Shown here: piece by piece, positions 11,915 through 43,455 of the stretch
How the letters are laid out: every line of letters begins with the position of its first letter
Numbering within the stretch: position 1 is the stretch's first letter
Source: a virus
IMG/VR virus record: IMGVR_UViG_3300032516_000058
Span: 1-43,455 of that record
DNA length: 43,455 nucleotides
Reading direction: 5' to 3' (one strand)
Program-made: the position numbers and the translations under genes
The notes under the pieces: generated by a model
What the model saw: the letters and a program-made list of their open reading frames with translations, nothing else
What the model was told of the DNA's origin: nothing
Databases searched by the model: none

Positions 11915-12721
11915 CTACCCGCCTCGAGCCGCGGTGGATCCACCAGGTAGGACCGCCGCGGTGGGCCCGCCTGGGGTCGACCGAGATCGGCGGCTGCCGC
12001 CCTTGGCGGTCCCGCCGCGATCGCCGGCGGCCGCGGCGGACTTGCCGTTGGTGGCCACCAACGCGGCGAGGACCGCCGCCCGCTTGATCGGGTCCAGGGC
12101 CTCGAACCGCCGCGTCCAACGCTGGACGAGGCGGTGGAAGTCGAGTCGCCCGCGCCAGTCGCGGCCAATCCACCGGTCATCGTGGAGCTCGATCGGCGCG
12201 GGATAGTTCATCCACAGGACCTCCACGGCGGGGCCGCCGCGGGTCTGCACGCCGTAGGTCTCCCTGCGCCACCCCTTGAGCATGCGGTCGTAGAGCGCCG
12301 ACTGGTAACCGGAGATCATGATCCAATGCTCCTGCAACCGCAGCAGGGTCAGCAGTAGTTGCTCGTGGTCCCTCGGCGTCATGTCGTGCTGGTAGTAACG
12401 CCGGTTGGGGTCTCGCCGCGTGGCTCGCAGATAGGGCGGATCGCAGTAGATGAAGACCGGCCCCCCGAACTGGCAAAGATCGCCCCGCAAAAACCTGATT
12501 CCATCCGCAGCGTGAAAAACCGTGTTCGGCGGCGCCTGCGGCCGCACCAGGTCGATTGACCGCTGGTCGAGGTCCACCGCGAAACTCTTCAGCGCCGGCC
12601 GTTTGTGCCGCAATATGGCACCGGAGCCCAGGAACGGCTCGATGTAGACGTCGTGCGGCGGGATCTGGTTGACGATCCGCCGCCAGGTGCCGCCCGAGTT
12701 TTTCCCGCCCGGGTAACGCAT
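11915..12721 (-). CDS. D12-class (Dam-like) N6-adenine DNA methyltransferase
   Basis: The enzyme would methylate adenine in a short DNA target using S-adenosylmethionine. MRYPGGK opens the protein as in Dam. The SAM-binding motif is YIEPFLGSG (26-34), and the catalytic DPPY lies at 94-97 (IYCDPPYL). These define the alpha/D12 class. At 268 residues the length is normal, but the last 60 residues are low-complexity, rich in Gly, Arg and Ala, and probably not part of the fold. The ATG at 12721 is preceded by a repeat copy with GCGGAGGAGG. It adjoins the ParB-like gene, whose end overlaps the repeat. Without a partner nuclease nearby, a protective or regulatory role is likely. Confidence 0.92.
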   Translation of the reverse strand: MRYPGGKNSGGTWRRIVNQIPPHDVYIEPFLGSGAILRHKRPALKSFAVDLDQRSIDLVRPQAPPNTVFHAADGIRFLRGDLCQFGGPVFIYCDPPYLRATRRDPNRRYYQHDMTPRDHEQLLLTLLRLQEHWIMISGYQSALYDRMLKGWRRETYGVQTRGGPAVEVLWMNYPAPIELHDDRWIGRDWRGRLDFHRLVQRWTRRFEALDPIKRAAVLAALVATNGKSAAAAGDRGGTAKGGSRRSRSTPGGPTAAVLPGGSTAARGG

Positions 12722-12724
12722 GGT

Positions 12725-14920
12725 TCAGCCTCCTCCGCGTTCTCCGTGCCTCTGTGGTGAGTCCTGGTTTCCGCCCTTCCTTCGCCGGCCGGGCCCGCGG
12801 CCGCCGGGTCTCAGCTCGGCCGGCATCGGCAGGCCGCGCTCGCGTTCCCGCCCGCGCTTGTCCATTCGGACCAAATCCGCCGGGCGGAGCGCCAGGAGCG
12901 CCTCGACGATATCGGTCTTCGTCCATGTGTTCATGTCGCCCCGCCGGCCTCCGTGTTGCTCGGGCCGACTAGCGGCGAAGACCTTCCCCCAACCAAGCAC
13001 CCCCTCGATCATCCCGACTAGTTGCTCCTTGCTGTGCAGCTCCCAGTAGCGGCGCGTCAGCGGCCCGCAGTGGGCCTTGTGCCAAGCCTCTTCCACGTCG
13101 ATCCCCAGGCGGACCGCAAACGCGTTCAGGTCCTCGGCCGGGACGTGGGGGACCGGCTGGCCGGGGTGGCCGGCCTCTTGCTCCCGATCCTTCGCCCAGA
13201 ACATTGCCGCCAACCACACGGCGACGTGGGCCGCGCAGTCGGGGAGCTCACTGAACATGCAGATCGCGGCGGCCGCCGCGTCGTCCTGGAGCATCCGGTT
13301 GCCGGTCTCCCCGGGGATCACGGCCCGGAGCTCCTCGCCGCGGCGGGCGATCTCCCGCTCCTTGCCCGAGGTCCAGGGTGGAAGCGGCCGGCGGCTCGCG
13401 GCGAAGTAAAGCGCGAGCCCGAGGACCATCCCCACGTCGACGTCCCGGCCGTCGCGGAGCCGCTCGGAGAGCAGCCATCGCAGCCAATCCGCCCGGACGG
13501 CTTCCAGCCGCTTCTCGTACTTCTCGGCCGCCTCCGTGGCCCGCGCCTCCGCCTGGCGCCTGGTGAGCTTTTCCGGCTTGTGATCGGCGGCCCGGGCCTT
13601 CGCCTTCCCGGCCTTCGCCGCAGCCGTCTTCCGCCACTCCACCAAAAACGCCCCCTGCCAACTCTTCCAAAGATCGACATGGACCGCCCGCTCCTCCTTG
13701 GCGGCCCCTTTGAGCCCGGTGTGCCGGGGGACCTCGATGATCCCGAGCCGCTCCCGTTGCTCCGGCGTGGGCGTGAAGATCGGGATCTGCTGGACGGCGG
13801 CCGAGTCCCAATCCGTGCCGTCGAGGGGCCGGGTGTTCGTCCGAACCTCCGCGGCCACATCGTGCATGAATTCGTCGTATGACCCGAATTCGATCTTGTC
13901 GCTCCGGCGGGTCCGTTGCTTCAGGAACCGCTCGGCGATCGCCGCCAGCAACTCCGGATGCTCGGCGTAGGGCAGGACCGCCCGGGCGTGGCCGGCCGGC
14001 AGCATTTCCGCGGAAATCCATCCGTGCCAGGGCTCCGCCGGGAGCCGCAGCAGGCCGACCGCGTTCGAGACGCTGGCCTGGCCGGCCCACCCGAGGCGTT
14101 TGGCCAGGTCCTCCTGGGTTATCCCCGCGGCCAGCAGCGACTGGAACCAGAGGGCCCGCTCGATCGGATTGAAGCTCGCCCGCTCTTCGTTGTCCGCGCC
14201 GACCTCCCAGCGGGCCTCGTCGTCGGTCAGCTCGACCACCTCCGCCCGGAGGGTTTCGAGCCCGACCAGCCGGGCCGCGCGGACCCGCCGCTCGCCGGCG
14301 ATCAGCTCGTAGACGAACCCAACTGCCGGCTTTGGTGCGTCGACCGTGCGGACCCGGATCGGGACGAGCTGCCGCGCGCGGAGTGATTCGCCGAGGGCCC
14401 GCAGCTGCTCCTCGGGAAACTCGTGCCTGGTCTGGTAGGGACTGGCGACCACCGCGGCCAATGGCACCAGACGCGATTCCGGGATGGCCGGCAAGACGCC
14501 GCCATCGAGCAATGAAGTATCCGACCGGCCGTTCCCGGTGGTGTGTCGGACCGGCGCCGGCTCGGGTTCCTCGCCTTCGTCCGCCGGCAAGGGGTTCTCT
14601 GCCTGAAAGCCCTTGCGCTCGGCGTACGCGTCGAGATCCTCTTCGGCGGTCTCGAATGTCGGCGACGGGGTGAATCGCTTCAGGACTTGCCGCCGTCCCA
14701 TCTCGTCCTCGGAGACCACACCCCAGCCGTCTCCCACCTCGGCGACGAAAATCCGGCGTCCGCCAAGCCCCCGGAAGACCTGCGGTATGATCTTCATGGG
14801 ATGGTCTGCGAAGCCCCGAAGTGCCCCCTTGGGAGGCTCGGGCAGTGGTCTCGGCGTAGCCAGGTTTAGGTCATGCCGTGCCCGTCGGACCGCTCGTCTC
14901 TTCGCGTTCATAGTAGTCAT
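12725..14920 (-). CDS. ParB/Spo0J-like protein, large (731 aa)
   Basis: A ParB N-terminal domain spans about 148-235, with the CTP-binding-type GERR motif in ELIAGERRVRAARLVG (205-220). An HTH follows (about 266-291, ITQEDLAKRLGWAGQASVSN). The remainder, about 430 residues, is helical and rich in Arg and Ala. ParB proteins bind centromere-like sites; phage ParB-like proteins can also act as nucleases or regulators. No ParA gene is present, so plasmid-style partition is doubtful. The start at 14920 has GCGGAGGAAAAGC in front, provided by a repeat copy. The final residues (DSPQRHGERGGG) are encoded by another copy, showing that the gene ends inside a repeat. It sits between two methyltransferase genes. 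Confidence 0.88.
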   Translation of the reverse strand: MTTMNAKRRAVRRARHDLNLATPRPLPEPPKGALRGFADHPMKIIPQVFRGLGGRRIFVAEVGDGWGVVSEDEMGRRQVLKRFTPSPTFETAEEDLDAYAERKGFQAENPLPADEGEEPEPAPVRHTTGNGRSDTSLLDGGVLPAIPESRLVPLAAVVASPYQTRHEFPEEQLRALGESLRARQLVPIRVRTVDAPKPAVGFVYELIAGERRVRAARLVGLETLRAEVVELTDDEARWEVGADNEERASFNPIERALWFQSLLAAGITQEDLAKRLGWAGQASVSNAVGLLRLPAEPWHGWISAEMLPAGHARAVLPYAEHPELLAAIAERFLKQRTRRSDKIEFGSYDEFMHDVAAEVRTNTRPLDGTDWDSAAVQQIPIFTPTPEQRERLGIIEVPRHTGLKGAAKEERAVHVDLWKSWQGAFLVEWRKTAAAKAGKAKARAADHKPEKLTRRQAEARATEAAEKYEKRLEAVRADWLRWLLSERLRDGRDVDVGMVLGLALYFAASRRPLPPWTSGKEREIARRGEELRAVIPGETGNRMLQDDAAAAAICMFSELPDCAAHVAVWLAAMFWAKDREQEAGHPGQPVPHVPAEDLNAFAVRLGIDVEEAWHKAHCGPLTRRYWELHSKEQLVGMIEGVLGWGKVFAASRPEQHGGRRGDMNTWTKTDIVEALLALRPADLVRMDKRGRERERGLPMPAELRPGGRGPGRRRKGGNQDSPQRHGERGGG
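12732..12760 (-). repeat. CACCACGGAGGCACGGAG repeat (copy 3)
   Basis: This copy encodes the last residues of the ParB-like protein and also supplies GCGGAGG just upstream of the D12 methyltransferase ATG at 12721. Confidence 0.9.
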
Positions 14921-14960: not shown

Positions 14961-15758
14961 CTACCCCTGTTCGAGCAACTCGCGAATCGCCGTGAACAGC
15001 GCCCGCCCCATGGCCATCGGCACGGCGTTGCCCACGGCCTGGCACTTGGCCTCGATCGTCATGCCCGGCAGATCGAAGCCCGCGGGCAGACCCTGCTTCC
15101 GGCACAGCTCCGCAAACATCTCCTTACTTCTCAGGGTTAAACCCAGGCGGGACGTCCCTCTCCGCAGTCCGCCGCCTTTACGCCGCCGATCGCGGCCATT
15201 GCCGATCGTACTCTTGCTGGCGCCGCCGATCGCCGCGTATTCCCAGAGGCTGTTCTCGATGGCGACGCGGGGCAACACCAGGTGCGTCGCACGGCAGCGC
15301 CTCATCCTGGGCCCGTCGCCGCAGATGCAATTCGCCCCCCCGCGCCATCCGAAGGTCAGCCTCCGGAGGCGATTCTGGCTCTCTCCCAGCCAGCGGTTAT
15401 TGAACAACTGCGGATGGACCCCGTAGTCACGGGGCCGTGGAATCGGCGCTCCCCGGACGTTCTCCATGAGAAACCACAACGGCTGGGCCTCCCGCACCAC
15501 CCGCACATACGCGGGGATCAGGTTCCCAAATTTCGGCTTGTGTCCGTTGTGTTTGATGAGGCCCTTCAGCGAGCAAAAGGGCTGGCACGGCGGGCCGCCG
15601 AACACCCCGCCGAACACTCCGGCCGGCGGATGGAAGTTACGGATGTCGCCGCCCCAGAGGACGTCCGGTCCGCGGACAACGCAGAACCGCAACTCCTCAG
15701 CGGCGACGCCGAACAGATCGATCCCCGGAAACACGGACAGGAGCAGGTTAGGGTTCAT
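14961..15758 (-). CDS. C5-cytosine DNA methyltransferase (Dcm family)
   Basis: The enzyme would make 5-methylcytosine. Motif IV GGPPCQPF contains the catalytic Cys58. ENVRGAP (99-105) is motif VI. QNRLRRLTFGW (128-138) is motif VIII, and QAVGNAVP (near 240) is motif X. At 265 residues it is shorter than typical family members (300-400), with the loss in the target-recognition region (about 140-225), which is basic and has a CICGDGPRMRRC cluster. It overlaps the upstream winged-helix gene by 11 bases. It is followed by the ParB-like gene and the D12 methyltransferase, forming a DNA-modification block. I see no cognate endonuclease. Confidence 0.92.
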   Translation of the reverse strand: MNPNLLLSVFPGIDLFGVAAEELRFCVVRGPDVLWGGDIRNFHPPAGVFGGVFGGPPCQPFCSLKGLIKHNGHKPKFGNLIPAYVRVVREAQPLWFLMENVRGAPIPRPRDYGVHPQLFNNRWLGESQNRLRRLTFGWRGGANCICGDGPRMRRCRATHLVLPRVAIENSLWEYAAIGGASKSTIGNGRDRRRKGGGLRRGTSRLGLTLRSKEMFAELCRKQGLPAGFDLPGMTIEAKCQAVGNAVPMAMGRALFTAIRELLEQG

Positions 15759-21560: not shown

Positions 21561-22736
21561 TCAGCCTTCAGTCTCCATCTGGAAAAGCCTCCGTTGGCGC
21601 CGGTCGGCGGCCGTCCGGCCAAGCCGGCTGCGGCGGGGCTGCTGCATTTGCTCCATCGTCGCGGCCACGATCGTCTTCGAGACGTAGTGGTCGCGGGTCA
21701 TCGCGATCGCGGCGTGCCCGAGTTGTTTCTGCGCGACGTCCATCCGGACCTCCGCTGTCTGGTCCGCACAGCTCTTGCGCAGGGCATGGAACCCCCGCCG
21801 ACGCTGCGCCGGGATCCCCGCCCTGGCCAGCAATTTCGCGCGTACGGTGTGGAGGTGGCGAATGCAGTGCGGCCAGGGGAACACCGCGGCCCGCTCCGTG
21901 CGGATAGCCTCCATCGCCTGCTCCGCCGCGTGGTTCACATAGAACCGCTCGGGCTGGTCGCCCTTGTTGACGCACGCCGGGATCTCCACCCAGAGGCGAC
22001 CGCCCTCGTCGCGGCGGTGCCAGGCGTACTTCACGGCGAGGGCCGCGCCGATCCGCAGACCGGTGTTGTAGACGTAGACGATCAGGGCTTCCCACCAGAG
22101 TGGAGGCGGGACGCCGGGAATCACCGGGACGGTGGCCGACCGGCAAGCCTCGATCCATGCGCTCATCTCCGCCAGCTCGAAATAGTCATCAGGCGCCTTG
22201 TGCCGGGCCCGCGGCAATTTGACGCGGGGCGGGAGCCGGTGGTCCCCGACGATCACTTGGCCGCCGATCCGCCGCCGGCAACGGCCGAAAAGCCCGTGGA
22301 TCGTGGCCGAGTCCTCGCACCGCATGCGCGGGCCGGCCAAGCGGAAGAGGTGGCGTAGGTTGCGACCGTGCGCCCGCAACGTGTTCGGCGAGACGGTCGG
22401 GGCGCCGTGGTGCCCCGGCCGGGCGCGAAGGTAGGCCCAGAACTGGGGGACGTCGCGGGCCTCGCGGATCCGGCAAAGCGGCGGGCCGCCCGTGCTCGCG
22501 TCCCAGAACCTCAGGGTCGATTCATACCCGCGGAGCGTGGCCGGCTTCGCGTCGACGCCGATCCGCTCGGGCCAGGCGAAGAGCCGGAAGAACTCGGTCA
22601 GCGTCAGCCGGGGCGTCAGCCGCAGCGGCGTGGCCGGCGGGGACGTGCTTGGCGCGTCGGGGTCGGGCCGGAAGACGCGGACGGTCGGCAGGGCGGGTGT
22701 GGAACGGGTGCGGGTCTTTCGTTGGGGCTGTGCCAT
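21561..22736 (-). CDS. int: Tyrosine recombinase integrase
   Basis: From the ATG at 22736 the protein has 391 residues. The catalytic set of the tyrosine recombinase family is visible: Arg228 in YNTGLRIGAAL, a Lys near 258 (NKGD), His317-x-x-Arg320 in GFHALRK, His341 in QLGHA, and Tyr351 in TRDHYVS. An N-terminal core-binding (SAM-like) domain spans about 45-170. The enzyme inserts the phage into the host chromosome at attB. GAGGAG lies 11 bases upstream of the start. The open frame extends 52 codons further upstream, but that part lacks domain character. Paired repeats (22893-22985) and a tRNA fragment (23632-23673) upstream suggest attP is next to the gene. Confidence 0.94.
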   Translation of the reverse strand: MAQPQRKTRTRSTPALPTVRVFRPDPDAPSTSPPATPLRLTPRLTLTEFFRLFAWPERIGVDAKPATLRGYESTLRFWDASTGGPPLCRIREARDVPQFWAYLRARPGHHGAPTVSPNTLRAHGRNLRHLFRLAGPRMRCEDSATIHGLFGRCRRRIGGQVIVGDHRLPPRVKLPRARHKAPDDYFELAEMSAWIEACRSATVPVIPGVPPPLWWEALIVYVYNTGLRIGAALAVKYAWHRRDEGGRLWVEIPACVNKGDQPERFYVNHAAEQAMEAIRTERAAVFPWPHCIRHLHTVRAKLLARAGIPAQRRRGFHALRKSCADQTAEVRMDVAQKQLGHAAIAMTRDHYVSKTIVAATMEQMQQPRRSRLGRTAADRRQRRLFQMETEG

Positions 22737-23410
22737 TGGTGTGCTACTCCTCGGGGTGCTCGTGTTCGGCCAACCGGCCGCGCATGCCCGAGTCTTCCTG
22801 GCCTCAAACCGCGCTCGTCCGTGCGCGGGCGCGCACGGTGGGCGCAGGGAGTCGACCTCTACGCCCACCGCACGCTGCGCGCCGGAGACCAAACTAGGGT
22901 TGCGGCCTCACCGCCAAAAGCTGGTAAAGACGGCCGCAACTGACACACGTGGGGCGAGTCAGATCGCACTCGGCCGCACCCTAGTCTTGGGCCCGTTAGG
23001 GTCTTTACTGAGTCAGGTGTGGGGCGAGGCAGGTCATGAGACGCCAGCTTTTTGCCTGGGGCCCGCTGGGGCCCGATCAAACGTAAGCGGCGGCGAGTTT
23101 GGCAGAGCCGGAGGCACAAATCAACCGGGGACGCCATTTTGTGGGTGTTGGCCGAGAGACCTACTACCTGTAGTACCTACCACCCGGAAGAGCTTGTGGG
23201 AAACCATAATGGCCAGGAACGGCATGCACGTTCCCCAAGAAAGGTAGGCTTTCCTGGGGGCGGCTCGCCCGCGGTTCGGCGGGTCCGGTTGCTTACGTTC
23301 GACCAGTGCTGGCATGCAGCCTCTGAGAGAACACCGGACCCGCCGAATCGGGGGCAAAGCCAGGCCATCTGCCAAGGTGACAGATGCTATCGGCTCCCCC
23401 GTTGGCGTTA
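22737..23410. other. Integration region without a convincing gene; paired repeats and hairpins
   Basis: This 674-base stretch has no gene I can support; the longer open frames are Arg/Pro-rich. It contains the inverted pair ACTAGGGTTGCGGCC (22893-22907) and GGCCGCACCCTAGT (22972-22985). GTGGGGCGAG followed by TCAG or GCAG occurs twice, near 22950 and 23021. There is a hairpin at 23233-23259 (CCCCAAGAAAG, loop GTAGG, CTTTCCTGGGG). A larger inverted repeat lies at 23275-23289/23333-23347. Such repeats are expected for integrase arm sites, an excisionase site and a promoter. Confidence 0.5.
23275..23347. repeat. Perfect 15-base inverted repeat with a 43-base loop
   Basis: TTCGGCGGGTCCGGT at 23275-23289 and ACCGGACCCGCCGAA at 23333-23347 are exact reverse complements. 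The loop carries GCATGC. The structure could be a binding site for a dimeric regulator or the boundary of a small insertion. Confidence 0.7.
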
Positions 23411-32212: not shown

Positions 32213-34219
32213 TTATTTGTCCTGGGTAGGGGAGCCGAGCGTAGGCTGGCCTTTCACGGCGTCGACGTGGGCTTGGGCCGCCTCCTTCATCGCCGTGGCG
32301 GCCTCCTTCAACTCGCCTGAGGCTTCGCGCATCTGGACCTCGATCGCGTTGATGGTCGTAGGGGTCAGGTACTGTTTCCAGTTAGCGTCTGAAGCAATAA
32401 GCGGGGTTCCCTCGCCCATCACGGCCCGCACCATCCCCTCAGCCCCGCCGGATCCCCACCTGCGCCGGAATCGAAATGCCGCGTTCGTTACCGAGCGCTC
32501 GATTTCCCCGGCGCCGGCCTTTTTTAGGCCAGTGTCGATGTTCGCGAGGACCGTGTCAGAATGCTTCATCCACTGGCCTTCCACCATCCCGGCCACTTCC
32601 GCCTCGCCCTCGGCTATCGCTGCGGCCTGCTCGGCTTGGGCCCGGGGGATGTTCTTGTCGAGGCCCATCCTTATGTCGGCTTCCCTGCGTTTGCCGGCGA
32701 GGACTGCCGCCGCGTGGGTCTGCCTGTACTTGGCAATGTTTTTCGGATCACCAAGAGCCGACAGGCCGGAGAGGGCCTCCTGCCTTCCGAGGAACTTCTG
32801 TTTGGTGGCCATGTCCATATCGGACGTCACCCGGAGCATCTCGGCCAGCATCCCGGCGGCGTCTTTGCCCTTGAGGTCCAAGGTGGGCGTCTTCGGCTTG
32901 GGCGGCTTGGTCACCCGCTCGTACCACTCCTCGGTCTGCTGGGTCGCACGCTGGAAGGTATCGTCGTCGATCATCCGCTTGCTTTGGAGCCGGCCCAGTT
33001 CGGCCAGCGTCCGGTCGCGCCGCTCGGCTGGGGTGAGGGTCTGCTCGCGCACCTTCTCCGCGACCTCGCGGAGGTGTTCCTCTTCCGTCTGACGGCGGCC
33101 GACGCTCTTCGCGGCCGCGCCGGAAAACATCTTGCTCATGTCGATGGGATGCCCCCTGGCGAGTTCTTCTCTCTTGGCCGTTTCCTCGTGCGCCTCCTGC
33201 ATGTCCTCAATGGCCTCTTCAGCGGTGAGCGGCCCGGCGCCGCTCCGCCGGACCATCGCGCGATAGACGGCTTGCAGGCGGGTGGTCCCCAGCGACTCTG
33301 ACCCGGTGGCCTTGGCGAGGATGGCGGCTTGGGAAAGCATCTCGGTGGGACTGATCCCGAGCAATTTGGCCTGGCCCGCCGCGCCCGCACTCTCCTCCAG
33401 CAGCTTCTGCACCAGGCCAGGCGCGCTCCCGGCAGCGCCGAAGGCTTGGGACACCACGTTTTCGAGATTACCGGCTCCATCAAAGGAGGTCTGGACGGCC
33501 GTGGCAGCGCGGACCATTGCCCTGGTGTCGGCGACCGTCCTGGTGGATCTGAGCCGGCTGATGAAGTCGATGGACTCCATTTGCTCGTTGCTCTTGGCGA
33601 TTTGAAGGACCTCCGCGGCCTCGGTCATACTCTTGGCGCCGCCCTTCGCGCGGATTTCCTTGGTCTTGCTCTCCAGGAACTCGATCGAATACGGGCCTTC
33701 GCCGGGCAGGTCGGCGATCTGTTTGAGGGTCCCCATCGCATCCGCGGACTCAACCTGTTTTTGAGCCAAGGATTTGTGCTTCTCCTCGATCTCGCTGAAC
33801 AACCGACTTGCCAGGCCAAGGGCCGAGCCCAAGGTGAGCACTCCCCCGATCATTCCCTTGAGCTCGCCGCCGATCTTCGCAAAGCCCCCCTGGCCGGCGT
33901 TGCCGGCGGCGACCATCGCGTCGTGCGACTGCTTGACCGCCCGGGCGTAGATGTCCTGGTCGAGCTTGCCCTTTTCGACCAGCCGGTTCAGCTCGCCGAG
34001 CTTGGTCATGTGCCGCTCCATCGGCGTGCGGGTCTCGTCCCAGACCCGCTTGGCGGCCTTCTCCAGGTCGGCCTCGGCCCTGGCCGACTTGCGGCTCGCC
34101 AGCTCCACCCCCGACAAGCCACGCTCCATCTGGAGGAACTTCTCGTTCGACTTGTCGATCGCCTGCCAGAGGGCAAGCTGCTGGGTCGTCATGTGGATGG
34201 TGACGTTGGCGTCGGGCAT
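32213..34219 (-). CDS. Tail tape measure protein, 668 aa
   Basis: This long, strongly helical protein (MPDANVTIHMTTQQLALWQA, then coiled-coil stretches about 20-135) has a hydrophobic Gly-rich segment near 110-140 (GGELKGMIGGVLTLGSALG). Further helical regions alternate with Gly/Ala and Lys/Glu-rich runs. In siphophages this protein sets tail length and helps form the DNA channel. At 668 residues the predicted tail would be about 100 nm by the usual 1.5 Angstrom-per-residue rule. It is the longest helical gene in the tail module and has the expected position before the tip genes. Confidence 0.9.
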   Translation of the reverse strand: MPDANVTIHMTTQQLALWQAIDKSNEKFLQMERGLSGVELASRKSARAEADLEKAAKRVWDETRTPMERHMTKLGELNRLVEKGKLDQDIYARAVKQSHDAMVAAGNAGQGGFAKIGGELKGMIGGVLTLGSALGLASRLFSEIEEKHKSLAQKQVESADAMGTLKQIADLPGEGPYSIEFLESKTKEIRAKGGAKSMTEAAEVLQIAKSNEQMESIDFISRLRSTRTVADTRAMVRAATAVQTSFDGAGNLENVVSQAFGAAGSAPGLVQKLLEESAGAAGQAKLLGISPTEMLSQAAILAKATGSESLGTTRLQAVYRAMVRRSGAGPLTAEEAIEDMQEAHEETAKREELARGHPIDMSKMFSGAAAKSVGRRQTEEEHLREVAEKVREQTLTPAERRDRTLAELGRLQSKRMIDDDTFQRATQQTEEWYERVTKPPKPKTPTLDLKGKDAAGMLAEMLRVTSDMDMATKQKFLGRQEALSGLSALGDPKNIAKYRQTHAAAVLAGKRREADIRMGLDKNIPRAQAEQAAAIAEGEAEVAGMVEGQWMKHSDTVLANIDTGLKKAGAGEIERSVTNAAFRFRRRWGSGGAEGMVRAVMGEGTPLIASDANWKQYLTPTTINAIEVQMREASGELKEAATAMKEAAQAHVDAVKGQPTLGSPTQDK

Positions 34220-34360: not shown

Positions 34361-34574
34361 ACGGCCTGGTGGCGACCCCGGCGGCGTAGGCGGCCTCCAG
34401 CCGGGCCCCCGCCGCAAACGCCGCGGCGCGCAGGACGTGGTCGGGGCGCGGGGCCCCGTTGAGACACGCCACGATCGCCGCCCGCGGTCGGCGCCGATCG
34501 CGGCGGGGGTAGAATGCGCGGGTCGCCTCCCGCGCCCGGGCAGAGCCGAGTGAAAAATAGTTGAGCTGCCCCAC
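34359..34574 (-). CDS. Small basic protein upstream of the tape measure, 71 aa
   Basis: The GTG at 34574 overlaps the upstream stop by one base (TAGTG), a clear coupling. The protein is basic and Ala-rich (SARAREATRAFYPRRDRRRP, AAAFAAGARLEAAYAAGVAT). A small protein directly before the tape measure is often a tail chaperone. This one is short and has no visible frameshift site, so it could be an additional chaperone or an unrelated gene. Confidence 0.6.
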   Translation of the reverse strand: MGQLNYFSLGSARAREATRAFYPRRDRRRPRAAIVACLNGAPRPDHVLRAAAFAAGARLEAAYAAGVATRP

Positions 34575-35032
34575 TAGCCGATCTCCCGAAACGTCATCCG
34601 CACGACGCCGTTGAAGCTCGTCGGCGCGCTGAGGAGGCGCAGGCCGATCGTGCCCCCGCCGGGAACGATCACTCGCTCCTCGGGGAGCGGGTCGAGAAAC
34701 CACCCTGACAAGCTGCTAAACCCCTCGCGGCCGATTTCGGAGTTGGCCGCGTAGGTCGGCTCGCCGCCCGTCACGTCCGCTTTGACGGTCGAGGCCGCCG
34801 CTTGGTCGCCCGCCTCGTGTGCGGCGGGCGTCACTGCCGTGGCGGCGGGCGTGCCCAGGGCCTGGACCCGCTGGAGGCAGCACACCAACTGCTGGTTGAC
34901 CGGGTTGGACTCATTGGTCAGCGCCGCGGAGAGGATCTCGACCACTTGGTTGGCGGCCGCGGTGAGGTAGATCACGGTCTTGGCCGCGGCCAGGGCGCTG
35001 ATCCGGTAACTTGCGGTGTAGACGCCTCGCAT
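34574..35032 (-). CDS. Tail-module structural protein, 152 aa
   Basis: MRGVYTASYRISALAAAKTV opens the protein. It has a central block with Cys-Cys (LVCCLQRVQALGT) and a C-terminal block GWFLDPLPEERVIVPGGGTI, both folded-looking. AGGAGG is eight bases before the ATG, the strongest ribosome-binding site of the module. Such layouts are common for minor virion proteins. Family not recognised. Confidence 0.65.
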   Translation of the reverse strand: MRGVYTASYRISALAAAKTVIYLTAAANQVVEILSAALTNESNPVNQQLVCCLQRVQALGTPAATAVTPAAHEAGDQAAASTVKADVTGGEPTYAANSEIGREGFSSLSGWFLDPLPEERVIVPGGGTIGLRLLSAPTSFNGVVRMTFREIG

Positions 35033-35044
35033 TACGATTTCCTC

Positions 35045-36862
35045 CTAAAGCACTTTGCGTCGCCGGGATACAATCACTGCGCCCGCGTACACGTCGAAGT
35101 TCCAGTACATGGTTCCCGAGCCGTTGCGCCCGCCCACCCGCAGCCGGAGCTGCCGGTCGTAGGCCGGGACAAGGCTCAGCGTGAGCGTCTGCCAGGCGGT
35201 GTCGTCGGCCATGGTCGCCGTGACGAGGGCCTCCTGGGCATCGCCCCAGGGCTTGTTCGGGTTGATCAGCCTGGCGTAGGGCGTGGCGGTCATGCCGTTT
35301 TGCTGCTTGCGGACGTAGACCCGCACGGTCAGGGGCAGGTTGGCCTCACCCCAGACGGGCACCTCGACGAAGTCGTCGTAGCCGGCCGCCTCGAAGGTGT
35401 GTTTGTGGACGTAGCTGAGCGGGACGGGCGGAGTGCCATGGGTGCCCAAGACCCAGTCCTCGCTCGCCCCATAGCCGCCGCAGTTCCACCACTTCATCCG
35501 GCCAAGCTGCGGATCGCCCGACGCATCGGCCACGTCGTAGAGAACGACCAAGGCGGTTGGATAGGGGCTGGTCTTCAGGTACTCGCTGACCTGCACGGTC
35601 GATCGCAGGCCCGCGCCATACCCTTCCCAGTATCCGTTTAAGAGGGCCAGGTCGGAGGTGGAGTTGGCGTTGGCGCCGCTGCCGCCGAGGACCGCCCCCT
35701 GCTTGATCGTCCCCGTCCCGTAGATGATCCCCCAGGTGCAGCCCGTGATGCTGCCGACGACGTCGCACGCCCCACAATTGTCAACCCCCTTGGCGCATCC
35801 AATCACCTGGCCGCCGAGGGACGCTCCAGTGATGTTCTGCAAGCCGGCCGTGCAGCCGGCGACGGTTCCGCTTAAGGAGCCTCCCAGCAACCCCGTGGCG
35901 CCGGTCGTGCTGCCGGCAATGAGCCCGCTGACGGTGAACCCCGTGCTGCTGGCGTAGCCGGAGGAGATTCCAGTGCCGTTGCCGACGACACAGCCGGAGA
36001 CGACGCAGCCTTCGCGGCCGCTGATGCCCCCGGAGAACCCGTTGATGACGCCGCCCAGCGTGTCGCCGTAACTGTAGATGATGCTGAAGCCCTGCTGGGT
36101 GCCCGTCTGGCGCAGGGTGCAGTTGAAGACGCAACTGCCGACGGCTCCGCTCGACGGCCCGGTCACCACGCTCTGCGAGCCCTCTGCGGTGATCTCGATG
36201 TTGCGGGTCACGCGCACGAGAAAGGCCCCGGCGACGTTGGTGGAATCGAGGGCATCGCTCACCGTGATCGTCGTGGCGGCGATCCCGCCCGCGGCGATCG
36301 TGGTCCGCTGGTAATCCACGCCCTTGTTGACGTTGCACAGGGCCACGACCTCCCCGGCGGCCCAAATATCGCCGGTCACGTCGGTATCGACGGAGAGGAC
36401 CGTCTGGCCCGCCGCCTTGTCCGCGGTGAGCTTGACCCACTTGTAGGTCGGCTGGGCGCAGAAGAGCTGGACGTCGAGGTAGGTCCGGTCGATCTGGGCC
36501 CCGCCGCTGGTGGTCCCGAGGAGCTTGATCGTGAGCTTCGCCCCGTTCGAGAGCGGCGTCCCGGCCGATCCGGCATAGAGCTGGCCCTTGACCGCGGCAT
36601 TGGTGCCCTGGATCTTGGTGCCGGTCTTGATCGGCAGGACGTAGGTCCCGTTGGCGGTGGCGCACTGGAGCTTGCCGGGAGTCACGGCGGCGGACGTGAT
36701 GGTCAACCCAGCCACGCCCGTGGTCCAGGCGGACAAGTCGACGTCGAAGGTCAGCGTATGTCCGGCGGCGACGACCACGGCGTCGCCGTCGGCCGGGAGC
36801 GAGCCGCCCCAGGTGGCGGTGTCCGACCAGTTGCCCGATTGTGCGGTCGTCTTGGTTGCCAC
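35045..36862 (-). CDS. Beta-helical fibre/tailspike-like protein with N-terminal G8-like domain, 605 aa
   Basis: The N terminus (SGNWSDTATWGGSLPADGDA, VVVAAGHTLTFDVD) follows the G8-domain pattern, in which a W-x5-TW-G start is followed by a DGD turn. Residues about 230-390 form a right-handed beta-helix made of short, Gly/Ser/Cys-rich turns (GCVVSGCVVGNGTGIS, then GTVAGCTAGLQNI). The C-terminal 170 residues look like a jelly roll (RVYVRKQQNGMTATPYARLI). Such proteins bind or degrade surface polysaccharide. It is unusual to find it between the candidate tail chaperone and the tape measure. GTG start with GGAGGG upstream. Confidence 0.8.
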   Translation of the reverse strand: MATKTTAQSGNWSDTATWGGSLPADGDAVVVAAGHTLTFDVDLSAWTTGVAGLTITSAAVTPGKLQCATANGTYVLPIKTGTKIQGTNAAVKGQLYAGSAGTPLSNGAKLTIKLLGTTSGGAQIDRTYLDVQLFCAQPTYKWVKLTADKAAGQTVLSVDTDVTGDIWAAGEVVALCNVNKGVDYQRTTIAAGGIAATTITVSDALDSTNVAGAFLVRVTRNIEITAEGSQSVVTGPSSGAVGSCVFNCTLRQTGTQQGFSIIYSYGDTLGGVINGFSGGISGREGCVVSGCVVGNGTGISSGYASSTGFTVSGLIAGSTTGATGLLGGSLSGTVAGCTAGLQNITGASLGGQVIGCAKGVDNCGACDVVGSITGCTWGIIYGTGTIKQGAVLGGSGANANSTSDLALLNGYWEGYGAGLRSTVQVSEYLKTSPYPTALVVLYDVADASGDPQLGRMKWWNCGGYGASEDWVLGTHGTPPVPLSYVHKHTFEAAGYDDFVEVPVWGEANLPLTVRVYVRKQQNGMTATPYARLINPNKPWGDAQEALVTATMADDTAWQTLTLSLVPAYDRQLRLRVGGRNGSGTMYWNFDVYAGAVIVSRRRKVL

Positions 36863-36863
36863 G

Positions 36864-37055
36864 TCAGGGTCCCTCCGGCGGCGTGAAAGGCGGCTCGCTC
36901 ACCGCGGCCATCAGGGCGGCTTCGACCTGGTCGGCCGCAGCCTGGACGTCGGCCGGCTCTTCGGCGAAATGGAAGACCCGCACCGAGCCGTCCGCCAGCC
37001 GGCAGCGAACGTCGAAGCCGTCGCAGACGCAGGACTGATCGAGAATTGCCGCCAT
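36864..37055 (-). CDS. Small protein, 63 aa
   Basis: MAAILDQSCVCDGFDVRCRL followed by ADGSVRVFHFAEEPADVQAA, a small beta-alpha protein with three Cys residues. It starts three bases after the end of the previous gene and ends one base before the GTG of the beta-helical protein, so it is part of the same unit. Function unknown. Confidence 0.65.
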   Translation of the reverse strand: MAAILDQSCVCDGFDVRCRLADGSVRVFHFAEEPADVQAAADQVEAALMAAVSEPPFTPPEGP

Positions 37056-37058
37056 GGC

Positions 37059-37469
37059 TCAACTCCCCCCCACCGGCAGTGAGTAGATTTCCAGCGTCTC
37101 GACCTCCAGCGGGTTTAGGGCGATCGTCTCACCGCCCACGTCGGTGAGGACGACCTCGACGCGGTAGGTCCGGTCGCCGGCGGGGAAATTGATCCCCGGG
37201 ATCTTCCAGACGAAGTTGGGGTTGGATGCGTAGGGCCAGCGGGGGTCGCTCACCGCCGGGTTGGGAATCACCGCCGACTGGACGAGGGTGCCCGAGCTGG
37301 TGGGGACCGAGGGGGTGTCGCCGTCGAGGTCGTACACGTTGTAGACGATCGACGCCACCGCCGCCGGCACGACCGGGACGCCGAGGTTGTCAAAGACCTC
37401 GGCCAGGAGGACGACCGCACTGGCCTCCCAGGTCACGATCTTCGTCGGCTTCGGTCGAGCTTGCGTCAT
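37059..37469 (-). CDS. Minor structural protein, 136 aa
   Basis: A beta-sandwich-like protein (TWEASAVVLLAEVFDNLGVP, VVYNVYDLDGDTP-like pattern, TYRVEVVLTDVGGETIALNP). The ATG at 37469 lies one base after the stop of the -1 frame at 37471, so the reading passes directly from the frameshifted frame to this gene. It is a tail component by position. Confidence 0.7.
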   Translation of the reverse strand: MTQARPKPTKIVTWEASAVVLLAEVFDNLGVPVVPAAVASIVYNVYDLDGDTPSVPTSSGTLVQSAVIPNPAVSDPRWPYASNPNFVWKIPGINFPAGDRTYRVEVVLTDVGGETIALNPLEVETLEIYSLPVGGS

Positions 37470-37470
37470 G

Positions 37471-37640
37471 TCAGCGCCGGATCAGGTAGTTGGTCGTGTA
37501 AACCGCCAGGGGCGGCGGGTCGCCGAGACCCACCGCCAGGGCCCACATGTCGGTCAGGGTGGGTCGGTAGCCGGGGTCGAGTCCCCGGGCCCATCTCCGG
37601 TATTCGAGCCATCGGACTCCCCGGCGGCCTGTTTTTTTTT
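37471..37640 (-). CDS. -1 frame extension of the tail chaperone (fusion product)
   Basis: After the A9 run the -1 frame stays open for 53 codons: TGRRGVRWLEYRRWARGLDP then GYRPTLTDMWALAVGLGDPP and PLAVYTTNYLIRR, stop at 37473-37471. The sequence has real protein character (aromatic, folded-looking, no low complexity). The frame ends one base before the next gene's start. A -1 slip would give about 293 residues in place of the zero-frame 265. Lambda G/GT and many siphophage tail chaperones are made this way. Confidence 0.7.
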
Positions 37641-38351
37641 GCGGAACCATGCCAGCCGCGTGGGCACGTCGCAGAGCGCGTCCAGGATCTCGCTGGCCAA
37701 TTCGGTCGAAAGCAGGCCCAAGAGGTCGATCTCCGCGGACCCAACCAAGTAATTGACCGCCAACATCCTGATCGCGCTCTCGACCACATCGTTAAACTTG
37801 AAGGTTGCGACGTCCTCGTCGTCCTTCTTCCCGGCATTGCGGGCGGCTTCGATACTGCTGTTCTCCCACCGCTGGGCGAGGTCCCAGATTGCCTGGTAAC
37901 GGGGCACGATCGCGGTGGACTGCCAGGTCCCGTCCTGGGCGCGGGCCAGTCGCCGGGGCAGGTTGTGGGCCCATCGCAGCTCCCCGTCTTCCTCCTGGTA
38001 TTGGCGGGCGATGGGCACGAGCCACTGCTGGCCGTCCAGGAGCTCGAGCCAGTGGCCGGTGATCGGCTTCTGGCGGAGCAGGTCGGCGGGCCCGGGCAAC
38101 GGGCCGTCGGTGTGGACGCCGACCCAAAGCTCTCGCGTCGGGTCCTTGATCCATCGCTGGCGGGTGGGGAAGTAGCCGACCTCAGGCACCCGCTGGCCGT
38201 CGCCGAGCAGCACTCCCCCATGGCCGTTCGGCCCGTTGCCCGTGATCTGCCGGCAGACCGGCTTGGACTCGAAGGCATGGCCGACCCCGGCGGCGATCAG
38301 ATCGGCCGGCGGGCCCAAAAGGTTCGGTATGTAGTACAAGAAACCTGGCAT
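37554..38351 (-). CDS. Candidate tail assembly chaperone (zero-frame product), 265 aa
   Basis: The ATG at 38351 has GGAGGGACC just before it; another ATG lies five codons upstream. The N-terminal 180 residues are mixed alpha/beta (MPGFLYYIPNLLGPPADLIA). The C terminal part (FNDVVESAIRMLAVNYLVGS, EILDALCDVPTRLAWFRKKK) is helical like tail chaperones. Lys238-240 are encoded by nine consecutive A bases, where a -1 slip would create a second product. After the slip point, the zero frame continues into a Gly/Ser/Asp-rich tail. It lies just downstream of the candidate tail tube gene, as expected. Homology to known chaperones is not proven. Confidence 0.7.
   Translation of the reverse strand: MPGFLYYIPNLLGPPADLIAAGVGHAFESKPVCRQITGNGPNGHGGVLLGDGQRVPEVGYFPTRQRWIKDPTRELWVGVHTDGPLPGPADLLRQKPITGHWLELLDGQQWLVPIARQYQEEDGELRWAHNLPRRLARAQDGTWQSTAIVPRYQAIWDLAQRWENSSIEAARNAGKKDDEDVATFKFNDVVESAIRMLAVNYLVGSAEIDLLGLLSTELASEILDALCDVPTRLAWFRKKKQAAGESDGSNTGDGPGDSTPATDPP
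37632..37638 (-). promoter_or_regulatory. Putative -1 ribosomal frameshift site (A AAA AAA)
   Basis: The frame is CGC AAA AAA AAA CAG at 37643-37629. The heptamer A AAA AAA has the X XXY YYZ form in the zero frame. The -1 frame then reads ACA GGC CGC. An A9 tract is outstanding in this GC-rich DNA. A downstream stem or an upstream Shine-Dalgarno-like sequence would help; AGGCCGCCGG after the site may pair. Confidence 0.65.
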
Positions 38352-38378: not shown

Positions 38379-38407
38379 CCTCCGTGCTCTCCGTGCCTCC
38401 GTGGTGA
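38379..38407 (-). repeat. CACCACGGAGGCACGGAG repeat (copy 11)
   Basis: TCACCACGGAGGCACGGAGA then GCACGGAGG lies 28 bases before the ATG at 38351 on the minus strand, in the gap after the tail tube gene. Confidence 0.9.
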
Positions 38408-38420
38408 CTTTTCCCCGGTC

Positions 38421-39347
38421 TTACGTGGGTAGGGCGGTCCCCACGGTGATCGCCAGCGGGGCGTTGGTCCCGTCATAGTCCAGGGGCAGCGAGAGCGTGG
38501 TCTGGGAGCCGTCCGAGCCCTGGCCCTCGAACGGGGTCTCGATCGTGGCCAGGCCGCTGGCCGCGAGCTTGATGTGTTGGGCGGTGGCCGGGGCGACGAA
38601 AGTCGCCCCCTTGGCCCGCTTGCGGAGATAGATCGCCGTGTTCGCGTGCGTGGCGACGAGCCCGGTCATCGGGACGGCGGCGGCCTTGAGCCATTCCACG
38701 TCGATCCCGGTCAGCCGGATCGTGGTCAGAACGTGGCGGATCGACGTGAACGTGTCCCAGATGTCCGAGTCGGCCGACTCGGCGACCACGTCGATCCCGA
38801 AGTCGATCGAGAGGTTGTGGACGCCGGTGAAGGTCACGCCGCCGATCTGGACCGGGCCGAGGGTGAACCGCTCGGCGTCGGCGATCCCGGAGGGCAAGGC
38901 CACGGAGTCGGTGATCACCATCGGCTCGTTGGTGCCGTCGTGGACGATCACCGCGTCGTAGCTCAGGAGCGCATCGCCGCGGTGGTCGATGGTGAGGTTC
39001 TTCGGGGCGAGGATCCCGCGGGTGAACCCGTACTTGCGGTGGTTGCTCCCCGCAGTACGCGAGGAGCCGTCGGCGTGCTTCTGGGCGTAGAGGGCCAACC
39101 CGCCGACCATCTCGGCGATGCTCGCCCCGACCGTCCCGCACGCCGTCAGCGCCGTGGCGACGCACTTGGTCGAGAACCCGGGGGCGATCTTCTGGGCGTA
39201 CAGGGACTGCCAGCGGGCGTAGATCTCGCCCGAGGTCGCCTCGCGGCGGACCTCGCTCCCCAGGGCGATCGACTGGCGGGTGATCCCGCCCAACAACGTC
39301 GCCCCCAGGTTGACCGCGTAGAGGTTGTGTTTTCTGGTGACACCCAT
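38421..39347 (-). CDS. Major tail (tube) protein candidate, 308 aa
   Basis: MGVTRKHNLYAVNLGATLLG opens the protein. It is beta-rich with a central HNLSIDFGIDVVAESADSDI and a C-terminal block (QTTLSLPLDYDGTNAPLAIT). It lies between the neck genes and the tail chaperone, where siphophages keep the tube subunit. GGAG lies eight bases before the ATG, supplied by a repeat copy at 39356-39383. The family call is by position and fold character, not by clear homology. Confidence 0.72.
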   Translation of the reverse strand: MGVTRKHNLYAVNLGATLLGGITRQSIALGSEVRREATSGEIYARWQSLYAQKIAPGFSTKCVATALTACGTVGASIAEMVGGLALYAQKHADGSSRTAGSNHRKYGFTRGILAPKNLTIDHRGDALLSYDAVIVHDGTNEPMVITDSVALPSGIADAERFTLGPVQIGGVTFTGVHNLSIDFGIDVVAESADSDIWDTFTSIRHVLTTIRLTGIDVEWLKAAAVPMTGLVATHANTAIYLRKRAKGATFVAPATAQHIKLAASGLATIETPFEGQGSDGSQTTLSLPLDYDGTNAPLAITVGTALPT

Positions 39348-41683: not shown

Positions 41684-43455
41684 CTACGCGCCCACGTCGC
41701 GGGTCGCCCCGCGGGGATTCCTGGCCGCGGCCGCAAAGCGGCCCTCGACCTGGAAGACCAGGCACTGGTTCTTCGGGTTGAGGTAGCGGGTGATCCGCAT
41801 CCGCTCGTAGCCGACCATGTGGGCGTAAACGAACGCCCTCGAGAAGGCCGGGTCCTCGAACGTGTACCAGATCACGGCGCTCGCGGCGGTCAGATTTTTT
41901 TCCTTGGCGTACCCGACCTCGCCACGGTACATCTCCCCGGTCGCCGTGGTGACCGGCAACACGGCAACCAAGGGCTTCAAGAGCCGTTTGGTGCCTGCCC
42001 AGAGGGCCGGCGGGACCAGGATCCGATTGAGGTCGTAGTTGGCCGAGCCCTCGCCGCCAACGCCCGTCATGGCCCCGTAGAGGGCCTCGTGCTTGTCGAG
42101 CTCGGCGTCGCTGGGGGCCGCGCCGGAGGAGGACACGACGTTGGCATGCTCGCTCCCGAAGAACGAATAGGTGTCGAGCATCGTGGGGTTGCCGATCAGC
42201 ACGTTGGTGCAGCAGCGGTTGACCGACGCCTCGTGCGCCCTCTGCTGATCGCGGAGTTGCTCGGTGAAACCGCTCAGATCGTCGTTCTGCAACATGACGG
42301 GAGTCAGCAGACACTCGTCACCGTATTTTCCGGCCTGGATCCAGGCCGCGGTCTCGGCGCCCTTGACCTCCTTGAAATCGTCCCCGTCCGGGACCTCGGG
42401 CAGCTCGGAGTAGCCGCCGACCTCGATGATCGTGACCGGGCGGAAGTCCCGGAGCGCCTGCATGGGCGCGCACCAGAATTTGTAGGAGTACGGCCGCAGC
42501 GGCGCCCCGGCGTCGAGGATCCGGTTGGCCAGGTTCGACAACAGGTAGGGGAACGAGCCGGCGCCCGTGGCCGGCGTATCGGCGGAGGCCCGGATCAGGA
42601 CGGGGTTGAGCCCGCCGGCGACCAGGGCCTCCCTGATCGTATCCTCGGGCGTGCCGAGGGCGCGGCCCCCGGCCGTGCGGATGCACTCTTCCGCGATGAA
42701 CGCGAGCGGCTTGTATTTCAGCTCCGAGGTGCCCGGCGGGGCCTGGCCCTCGATCCTGACGCCGACCCGGGCGCAGAGGGCGTATTCGGCCGCGACCGCG
42801 AACTTATCGATCGAGGCCCCGCCGGCGACCGGCCGGATCGTCGGGTTCGCGTCGACCTGTTGGGCGGTCGCGTCGCGGAGGAAGCGTTCGACCTGGGTGC
42901 CGTTGGCGATCGCGGCGTCGATCTCTTCCTGGGTGACGCCGGTCTGCATCAGGACCGCGCCGCGGGCCCGGATCTCGGCGACCCGTTCCCGCTCGGCCTT
43001 GACGGCCGCGGCCGCGAAGGCCCGATCGGCGGCCGTCGGCCCGGGCTCGTAGTTGCCCGGCTCCTCCACCCTCGTTTTCTTCGGCGGAGGGGTTTCCACG
43101 CTCTGCGACTGGCTCGCGAGCGCGGCGACGACGGCGGCGGGTCCACCAGAGACCTTTTTCCCGCAGTCGGCGAGGAGATTGGAAAGGGCCTTGGCCGCGG
43201 TCGGTTCATCCGCTTCCGCGGTGATGAGGCCCAGGGTGATGAGGGTTGCGCGTACGGTTGGATCCACGGGGTGGGTCTCCTGTGCTGGGAAAGTTGGTTC
43301 ACTTGGGGTGAGGGTGGGGGTGGGGGTGAGGGTGAGCGTCACCGGCTGGCGATCGCCCCCAGGCAGGCCCGCCTTGGCGGACCTGCCTTGCGGATCCGCC
43401 AAGGCGATGTCGGCCTCCAGCCCGGCGAGGACGTCGGCCAGCGAGCCGAGCCGGT
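41684..43455 (-). CDS. Major capsid protein, C-terminal part of the protease-capsid fusion
   Basis: This frame joins in phase with the protease frame at 1008. TTG at 43402 is Leu307 of the fused protein and not a start. The first part is a Pro/Thr-rich linker (fused about 325-345, encoded by a G-rich tract). Next comes a helical, scaffold-like region (about 429-486) and then the capsid domain (about 488-878). Capsid blocks include YSYKFWCAPMQALRDFRPVT, GGYSELPEVPDGDDFKEVKG and LNRILVPPALWAGTKRLLKP. Together they suggest an HK97-type fold of the kind paired with head-maturation proteases. The protease would cut the scaffold and linker after prohead assembly. Lambda encodes these as separate genes (C/Nu3, E), so the fusion is a notable variant. 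Confidence 0.88.
   Translation of the reverse strand, partial: RLGSLADVLAGLEADIALADPQGRSAKAGLPGGDRQPVTLTLTPTPTLTPSEPTFPAQETHPVDPTVRATLITLGLITAEADEPTAAKALSNLLADCGKKVSGGPAAVVAALASQSQSVETPPPKKTRVEEPGNYEPGPTAADRAFAAAAVKAERERVAEIRARGAVLMQTGVTQEEIDAAIANGTQVERFLRDATAQQVDANPTIRPVAGGASIDKFAVAAEYALCARVGVRIEGQAPPGTSELKYKPLAFIAEECIRTAGGRALGTPEDTIREALVAGGLNPVLIRASADTPATGAGSFPYLLSNLANRILDAGAPLRPYSYKFWCAPMQALRDFRPVTIIEVGGYSELPEVPDGDDFKEVKGAETAAWIQAGKYGDECLLTPVMLQNDDLSGFTEQLRDQQRAHEASVNRCCTNVLIGNPTMLDTYSFFGSEHANVVSSSGAAPSDAELDKHEALYGAMTGVGGEGSANYDLNRILVPPALWAGTKRLLKPLVAVLPVTTATGEMYRGEVGYAKEKNLTAASAVIWYTFEDPAFSRAFVYAHMVGYERMRITRYLNPKNQCLVFQVEGRFAAAARNPRGATRDVGA
43304..43332 (+). repeat. G-rich tract coding the protease-capsid linker
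   Basis: On the plus strand GGGGTGAGGGTGGGGGTGGG and so on gives five or more G-tracts, with strong G-quadruplex potential. Its complement codes for LTLTPTPTLTPS. The contig opens and closes at this place, so it likely caused the assembly break and the poor first 17 bases. Confidence 0.8.
43330..43455. repeat. Terminal overlap, right copy (identical to 18-143)
   Basis: This is the second copy of the 126-base overlap. It belongs to the same gene as 18-143, so one copy should be removed when the molecule is circularised. Confidence 0.93.

Follow-up and report, generated by a model that had tools for sequence, protein, structure and literature searches.

The window analysed here is the whole of an IMG/VR virus record from an uncultivated virus, 43,455 bases in length with a GC content of 68%. 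On its minus strand lies a gene, G, encoding a candidate tail assembly chaperone, whose zero frame runs from the ATG at 38351 to the TGA at 37554-37556 (37554..38351, stop included) and gives a short product of 265 aa. G was defined by its open reading frame and by a profile with 77 distinct homologs, and AGGAGGGACC precedes its start codon. Inside G there is an A9 slippage tract at 37632..37640 (minus strand; the plus strand reads T9), which forms the codons AAA AAA AAA in the zero-frame context CGC AAA AAA AAA CAG and contains an in-frame A_AAA_AAA heptamer at 37638-37632. In the -1 frame, an open and conserved extension of 53 residues plus stop, called T (TGRRGVRWLEYRRWARGLDPGYRPTLTDMWALAVGLGDPPPLAVYTTNYLIRR), occupies 37471..37632 on the same strand. 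Its stop codon TGA is located at 37471-37473 and the next ORF starts at 37469, so that the gap is a single base. A long product, GT, is predicted from the sequence to join 240 residues of G, up to the third AAA codon, to the 53 residues of T, giving 293 aa (37471..38351, minus strand). The A9 tract, the zero-frame codons, the 53-residue extension and the one-base gap had all been listed in a preliminary description of this DNA, and each of them was confirmed in the sequence. By a codon reading, the low-complexity zero-frame tail of G is largely a shadow of the conserved -1 frame. The A9 tract is the sole run of eight or more A's or T's in the window; the pattern AAAAAAAA has two overlapping matches there compared with a mean of 0.10 in shuffled sequences, and only 4 of 100 shuffles reached 2. 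Such a tract is indeed unusual in a GC-rich genome, as had been suggested.

The genes on both sides of G are those of a tail module. Upstream, the ORF at 38421..39347 (minus strand) encodes a tail tube protein with a two-domain fold of the T5/P74-26 type. Its structural model, built from an alignment of 18 sequences with a pLDDT of 86.2, matches the tail tube proteins of P74-26 (8ed0_A; Z 17.3, rmsd 3.4 over 264) and T5 (9iny_A; Z 17.1, rmsd 3.2 over 268), which bears out the earlier claim that the gene lies downstream of a tail tube gene. On the other side, the ORF at 32213..34219 (minus strand, 668 aa) is taken as the tape measure protein because by blastp it is homologous to the large ORF after G/GT in relatives (best E values of 4e-23 to locus L002 and 4e-22 to L027). 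Between GT and the tape measure we count four ORFs taken as genes from the ORF list (34574..37469, minus strand: 37059-37469, 36864-37055, 35045-36862 and 34574-35032), one fewer than the five that had been reported. The tape measure ORF follows G/GT directly in L005, L006 and L007, and after one ORF in L003. Despite the four extra genes in the window, the lambda-like G/GT arrangement is well supported by the tail tube upstream (by fold) and the tape measure downstream (by homology). Among the genes in between, the 605 aa product of 35045-36862 has a match to the G8 domain (Pfam PF10162; score 25.5 bits, cut-off 22.9); in L003, L005, L006 and L007 the tape measure ORF is too near G/GT to leave space for such a gene.

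The rest of the record has PHROG matches for terminase (phrog_15), portal (phrog_21), a protease-capsid fusion (phrog_4523) and integrase (phrog_1), and from these the virus is a tailed and probably temperate phage. The head maturation protease and the major capsid protein are apparently fused in one ORF of 572 aa at 41684-43402 (phrog_4523, Pfam Phage_capsid_4). Three DNA methyltransferases (1622-2461, 11915-12721 and 14961-15758), a ParB-like protein (12725-14920) and the integrase (21561-22892) were also identified by PHROG match, and this gene content probably describes a temperate phage rich in methylation genes. An ORF of 199 aa at 1026-1625 has homologs which adjoin the tail tube gene, preceding it in L027 and following it in L002, and here it lies at the opposite end of the record. 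This position could reflect a circular or permuted record, or a mobile gene.

G belongs to a candidate chaperone family that the profile databases hardly recognise. When 25 members were scanned, G had no match in Pfam and one weak match in PHROGs, to a family without description; T of the window had no match in PHROGs. The AlphaFold2 model of G has a mean pLDDT of 92.3, with a beta N-terminal part (to residue 148) and a helical C-terminal part (150-246). The best match among viral folds is a protein named 'Tail assembly chaperone' (A0A6J5LCU1; probability 0.93, E 0.025, TM 0.24/0.40), which is a weak match, and against PDB the model had no match with E of 0.001 or lower, the Z score being at most 2.9 on a second look. 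The predicted structure is possibly a chaperone fold that has no solved relative.

A single-sequence search of viral and genome contigs with G of the window found no close relatives. The first six loci were therefore found via the tail tube protein, and the rest via alignments of both the tail tube and G. Since the peptide patterns of the scans that yielded loci lie outside the A run, the sample of loci is unbiased towards the run. The G profile retrieved 132 ORFs, five of which ran off the ends of their loci and were dropped (L098, L110, L113, L129 and L060). After merging duplicates, defined as ORFs with the last 240 nt of G identical, 77 distinct homologs from uncultivated phages were counted, with the window included. 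They are diverse, as 71 of the 77 rows are less than 50% identical to one another on the columns used for the tree. Two further loci, L017 and L020, had no G match at E 1e-5; they end 370 and 47 bases past the tail tube match, respectively. Other routes to relatives gave little. With the capsid protein, none were found in viral contigs and only distant ones in named phages; two scans of named genome contigs for prophages or hosts had no match; and in named phages there was no match for G of the window, L114, L048 or L012, nor for the tail tube of the window or of L012.

Across this family the -1 extension is almost invariably present. An in-frame slippery site leading into an open -1 extension exists in 76 of the 77 homologs. 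The extensions are 30-65 codons long, so all 76 reach 30 codons, compared with 46% for the +1 frame; 73 of them pass the stop codon of G, and the median over the 76 is 22 codons beyond that stop. To the eye, their common motif is RW..xRWxxGxxxxYxPTxADL, with variants. A T profile built from 24 extensions recovered the -1 frame in 50 of 53 held-out homologs at E of 0.01 or lower (the misses are L042, L106 and L119), while in the same homologs it matched two +1 frames (L042 and, marginally, L071) and no zero frame. Over the whole extension, pN is lower than pS in all five pairs examined, for example 0.03 against 0.22. The layout for a second product is seen as coding potential only, that is, an extension read in a different frame close to the 3' end of G and kept in 76 of the 77 homologs; judged by the profile recovery and the substitution ratios, the T frame is conserved and under selection. 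Together with the tail tube and tape measure flanks, these figures uphold the earlier reading of the locus as a candidate tail chaperone gene with a conserved -1 extension. The preliminary description had also pointed to conservation of the A run and of both frames in relatives as a check, and A9 or A10 is found in 71 of the 77 homologs, with the -1 frame open in 76.

Three explanations that dispense with a programmed switch can be weighed on the same comparative data. In the first, the tract is a sequencing error or the locus a pseudogene, such that A9 is false and G and T form one intact gene, or T is junk. Homopolymers are prone to errors, and the preliminary description had named re-sequencing to A8 or A10, or a -1 frame that is not conserved, as what would count against the programmed frameshift; neither is the case. 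Here, nine A's are present in 62 of the 77 homologs with a constant frame relation. Moreover, four virus groups were recovered twice as separate IMG/VR records (L003/L004, L010/L011, L027/L028 and L076/L077), and within each pair there is no difference over the final 240 nt of G, a stretch that contains the run, with A8 in L003/L004 and A9 in the other three. A sequencing error is unlikely for these two reasons, and with selection acting on T as well we give this explanation practically no weight. In the second, translation would initiate internally in the -1 frame and yield T by itself, not fused to G. In the window, the T frame does have an ATG shortly before the run (37650), but a T-frame ATG between -45 and +40 of the heptamer is present in only 15 of 76 homologs, and internal initiation would give no reason for the conservation of the slippery site; we find it highly improbable. 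In the third, phase variation, DNA polymerase would slip at A9 and produce a mixed phage population, with G and T fused in the DNA of some members. Long homopolymers are likely to be hypermutable, as a passage of PMC1088944 indicates. However, many fused or +1 records would then be expected, while the lengths are nearly fixed and T is at -1 in 76 of 77 homologs; phase variation is thus very unlikely too, and all three explanations were rejected. The one deviating homolog is L042, where an A10 run lies at 4689-4698 and the T profile places T in the +1 (or -2) frame with an E value of 1e-9; no other such case exists among the 77. Its heptamer is in frame, but the -1 frame closes after one codon. 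A misassembly, a shift in another direction or slippage by deletion may account for this.

The main question is then which molecule slips. We examined the length of the run and its position relative to the codons, as the two mechanisms under consideration constrain these differently. The run is A9 in 62 homologs, A10 in 9, A8 in 1 and A7 in 3, and it is lacking in 2. To contain an in-frame A_AAA_AAA, a run needs 9, 8 or 7 A's in codon phases 0, 1 and 2, respectively. A9 tracts are found in all three phases, with counts of 28, 20 and 14, and these do not differ significantly from the 23.2, 18.7 and 20.1 expected under a constraint on length alone (p 0.23). For phase 1, A8 already suffices for the heptamer, yet the next codon begins with A in 28 of 28 homologs (5.3 expected). 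In phase 0, in contrast to the 5.4 expected, the run is extended by a further A in 0 of 28. The phase 2 homologs comprise 14 with A9, one with A10, one with A8 and three with A7, plus two run-less G_GGA_AAN sites. The run is therefore longer than the heptamer needs in 28 of 28 cases in phase 1 and in most of phase 2. When we simulated the family with the heptamer as the only constraint, drawing the flanks from each gene's own composition and treating homologs as independent, 7.5 A9 sites of 75 were expected and at most 20 appeared in 20,000 runs, compared with the 62 seen. In the remainder of the 77 loci (635,408 bases) there is no run of nine or more A's or T's, and there are ten runs of eight. 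For the A9 sites, the conserved property as read from these homologs is the run length, with the codon phase free. A background rate for in-frame A_AAA_AA obtained by greedy ORF picking (14 in 69,809 codons) was set aside as some wrong frames had been picked.

A quick protein tree of G, made without the site, gives a similar view of length and phase. At least 25 phase changes are needed among the 62 A9 rows, compared with a mean of 28.0 (range 20-33) over 200 label shuffles, and 14 length changes are needed among all 77 homologs; 34 of the 74 inner branches are weak, so these counts are approximate.

These patterns bear directly on the strongest rival explanation, in which the ribosome undergoes ordinary programmed -1 frameshifting at A_AAA_AAA, as it does in lambda, and A9 is favoured for another translational reason. 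An in-frame heptamer of the form X_XXY_YYZ (A_AAA_AAA or G_GGA_AAN) exists in 77 of 77 homologs, and A_AAA_AAA is contained in every A9 run. In six homologs the run is shorter than nine or lacking, and all of them keep the heptamer in frame: L005, L050 and L075 with A7, L003 with A8, L024 with G_GGA_AAA and L118 with G_GGA_AAC. The A10 runs are also skewed towards phase 1, with 0, 8 and 1 seen in phases 0, 1 and 2 (8 of 9 in phase 1) compared with 2.7, 4.8 and 1.5 expected. In addition, frameshifting in certain tailed phages seems independent of any stimulator, according to passages of PMC5009743. Nevertheless, this explanation leaves three observations unaccounted for: the sufficient A8 is absent in phase 1 (0 of 28), A10 is absent in phase 0 (0 of 28), and A9 occurs in each phase about as often as composition predicts. 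If only an in-frame heptamer were constrained and stimulators were optional, which is our own yardstick for ribosomal slippage, the family as a whole would look different from what is seen, and it is the six homologs without a run of nine that fit. In two of these, at L024:6158 and L118:4214, a lambda-like ribosomal heptamer stands in place of the A run with the T motif unchanged, an apparent change of mechanism within the family.

Signals near the run were also searched. Shine-Dalgarno-like tetramers upstream of the site at first appeared enriched (27 of 77, while control positions gave 5 of 77), but this is explained by synonymous-codon resampling, in which 29 of 77 genes have one compared with 27.8 expected (p 0.42), that is, no excess beyond amino-acid composition. 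The ribosomal explanation thus has no upstream Shine-Dalgarno signal to draw on. Downstream of the run in the window, there is no hairpin beyond chance (z -0.14, dinucleotide shuffles). Across the family, the downstream stability is slightly above that of controls (mean z -0.44 against 0.06, mononucleotide shuffles), and this is a weak hint of a ribosomal stimulator. A scan for terminators and promoters found none at the run, and a terminator-like site elsewhere, at 38391-38404, is within chance. In total, ribosomal frameshifting as the general mechanism of the family seems to us a real possibility that falls well short of being probable.

The literature on slippage, cited here for the passages concerned, gives support to both sides. 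When nine A's in a row are conserved in length among homologs, they very likely reflect purposeful transcriptional slippage, according to Baranov et al. 2005 (PMC1088944). Eight A's are termed non-slippery in one passage of that paper, while in another they may suffice in D. radiodurans and Nostoc, the efficiency being highly organism-dependent; therefore a sharp threshold at nine A's is not universal. In passages of PMC5009743, nine A's or T's slip efficiently, the RNA:DNA hybrid is 9-10 bp, and transcriptional and ribosomal slippage may both happen at one site. Insertions of a single nucleotide predominate in homopolymers (part of PMC5574713), and one inserted A leads to exactly the -1 frame. 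Ribosome sliding in vitro is described in a section of PMC4363877 as robust at A11 and little at A9 or A10. On the ribosomal side, A_AA.A_AA.A is listed in the portion of PMC4066793 concerned as one of the motifs whose shifting in E. coli exceeds 0.10% with no stimulator present. The corresponding part of PMC3711429 reports frameshifting of 10% at A7, 40% at A9 and 63% at A11 in reporter cassettes, values that may include slippage by either the polymerase or the ribosome, and 6-7% in HK97-like tail chaperones. From these values, A7 can suffice and A9 may exceed what a tail chaperone needs. Tail chaperones are treated as ribosomal frameshifters in passages of PMC5009743 and of the PRFect paper (PMC10885494) and as likely users of recoding in a passage of PMC3711429, and ribosomal slippage is mentioned in part of PMC9965538. 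Tail chaperones made by slippage were found in none of the titles and abstract openings among the matches listed, in a search of the open-access literature.

RNA polymerase is favoured as the main agent because the A9 length is kept regardless of phase and because of the slippage literature (PMC1088944, PMC5009743, PMC5574713 and PMC4363877). We infer the chaperone function of G and the ratio of G to GT as well as this role of the polymerase, and the scheme that we propose is as follows. A plain reading of the gene would give G. RNA polymerase, whose RNA:DNA hybrid of 9-10 bp has about the length of the nine-A tract, would slip there and add one A to a fraction of the mRNAs; ordinary translation of the A10 mRNA would then give G-KKK-T, so that the minority product GT carries the T domain of the -1 frame. 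By analogy with lambda, G may coat the tape measure and T may recruit the tail tube. Selection would keep the run at nine, sometimes ten, A's, with enough slipping but not too frequent slipping. Ribosomal -1 slippage on A_AAA_AAA within the run may contribute, and the six homologs whose run falls short of nine or is lacking probably rely on ribosomal slippage alone. Peptides cannot discriminate between the mechanisms, as both would yield the same predicted GT of 293 residues. On balance, polymerase slippage at A9 is probably the main agent of the G/GT switch, with ribosomal frameshifting used instead in a few lineages. We also lean, with slightly less confidence, towards the broader statement that in a large group of uncultivated tailed phages the switch is made by the polymerase and not the ribosome, through a phase-blind A9 at which one A is added in a minority of mRNAs, and that a few lineages have swapped to a ribosomal heptamer. 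The preliminary description had called the site a programmed -1 frameshift on the lambda pattern. The G/GT layout and the conserved extension agree with it, and the ribosomal mechanism that it implied is doubtful since the length and not the phase is conserved.

If this is true, the tail-assembly ratio would be set at transcription and would depend on whichever polymerase transcribes the late genes. The same assembly ratio would also be reached through another step of gene expression, and a single family would have switched between the two, as is seen for dnaX in Thermus and E. coli. A simple sequence test could help to separate the mechanisms, namely whether the run length is conserved regardless of codon phase or only the heptamer is kept in frame. 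To our knowledge, tail chaperones are annotated on the assumption of ribosomal frameshifting. What seems to be new here is the length-conserved, phase-independent A9 in G/GT-like chaperone genes; the G/GT arrangement itself is already known.

Lambda G/GT is a well-known example of programmed ribosomal frameshifting. Its gene order is tail tube, G/GT and tape measure, and its own slippery heptamer is GGGAAAG. The locus in the window resembles lambda gpG/gpGT in this order and in having a short product with a predicted minority product extended in the -1 frame, and two homologs of its G (L024 and L118) have GGGAAAN heptamers of the lambda type. The differences are that most members have an A9 run as their site, placed in any of the codon phases, and that the mechanism is probably transcriptional. 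As a possible A9 control we considered Thermus phage P74-26, whose tail tube is similar, and set it aside: the gene that separates its tube and tape measure genes lacks any A run of six or more, and no overlapping extension is visible. When compared with dnaX of Thermus thermophilus, as described in passages of PMC5009743, PMC3711429 and PMC1088944, the locus shares an A9 tract and one gene with two products, and there too other members of the family reach the same result by ribosomal frameshifting. However, dnaX is a cellular gene in which about half of the product is full length, and its slippage product is the shorter one, while here it would be the longer one. A viral product made via one inserted A is known from potyvirus P3N-PIPO at GAAAAAA (a passage of PMC5009743), but that is an RNA virus with its own RNA polymerase and the run is shorter. 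The IS elements in PMC1088944 are similar as genes of mobile elements with A8-A10 runs, in which slippage was proposed to fuse ORFA and ORFB. They differ in that the product is a transposase and not a virion assembly chaperone, and the passages concerned cover 27 IS elements from five organisms with no analysis of codon phase.
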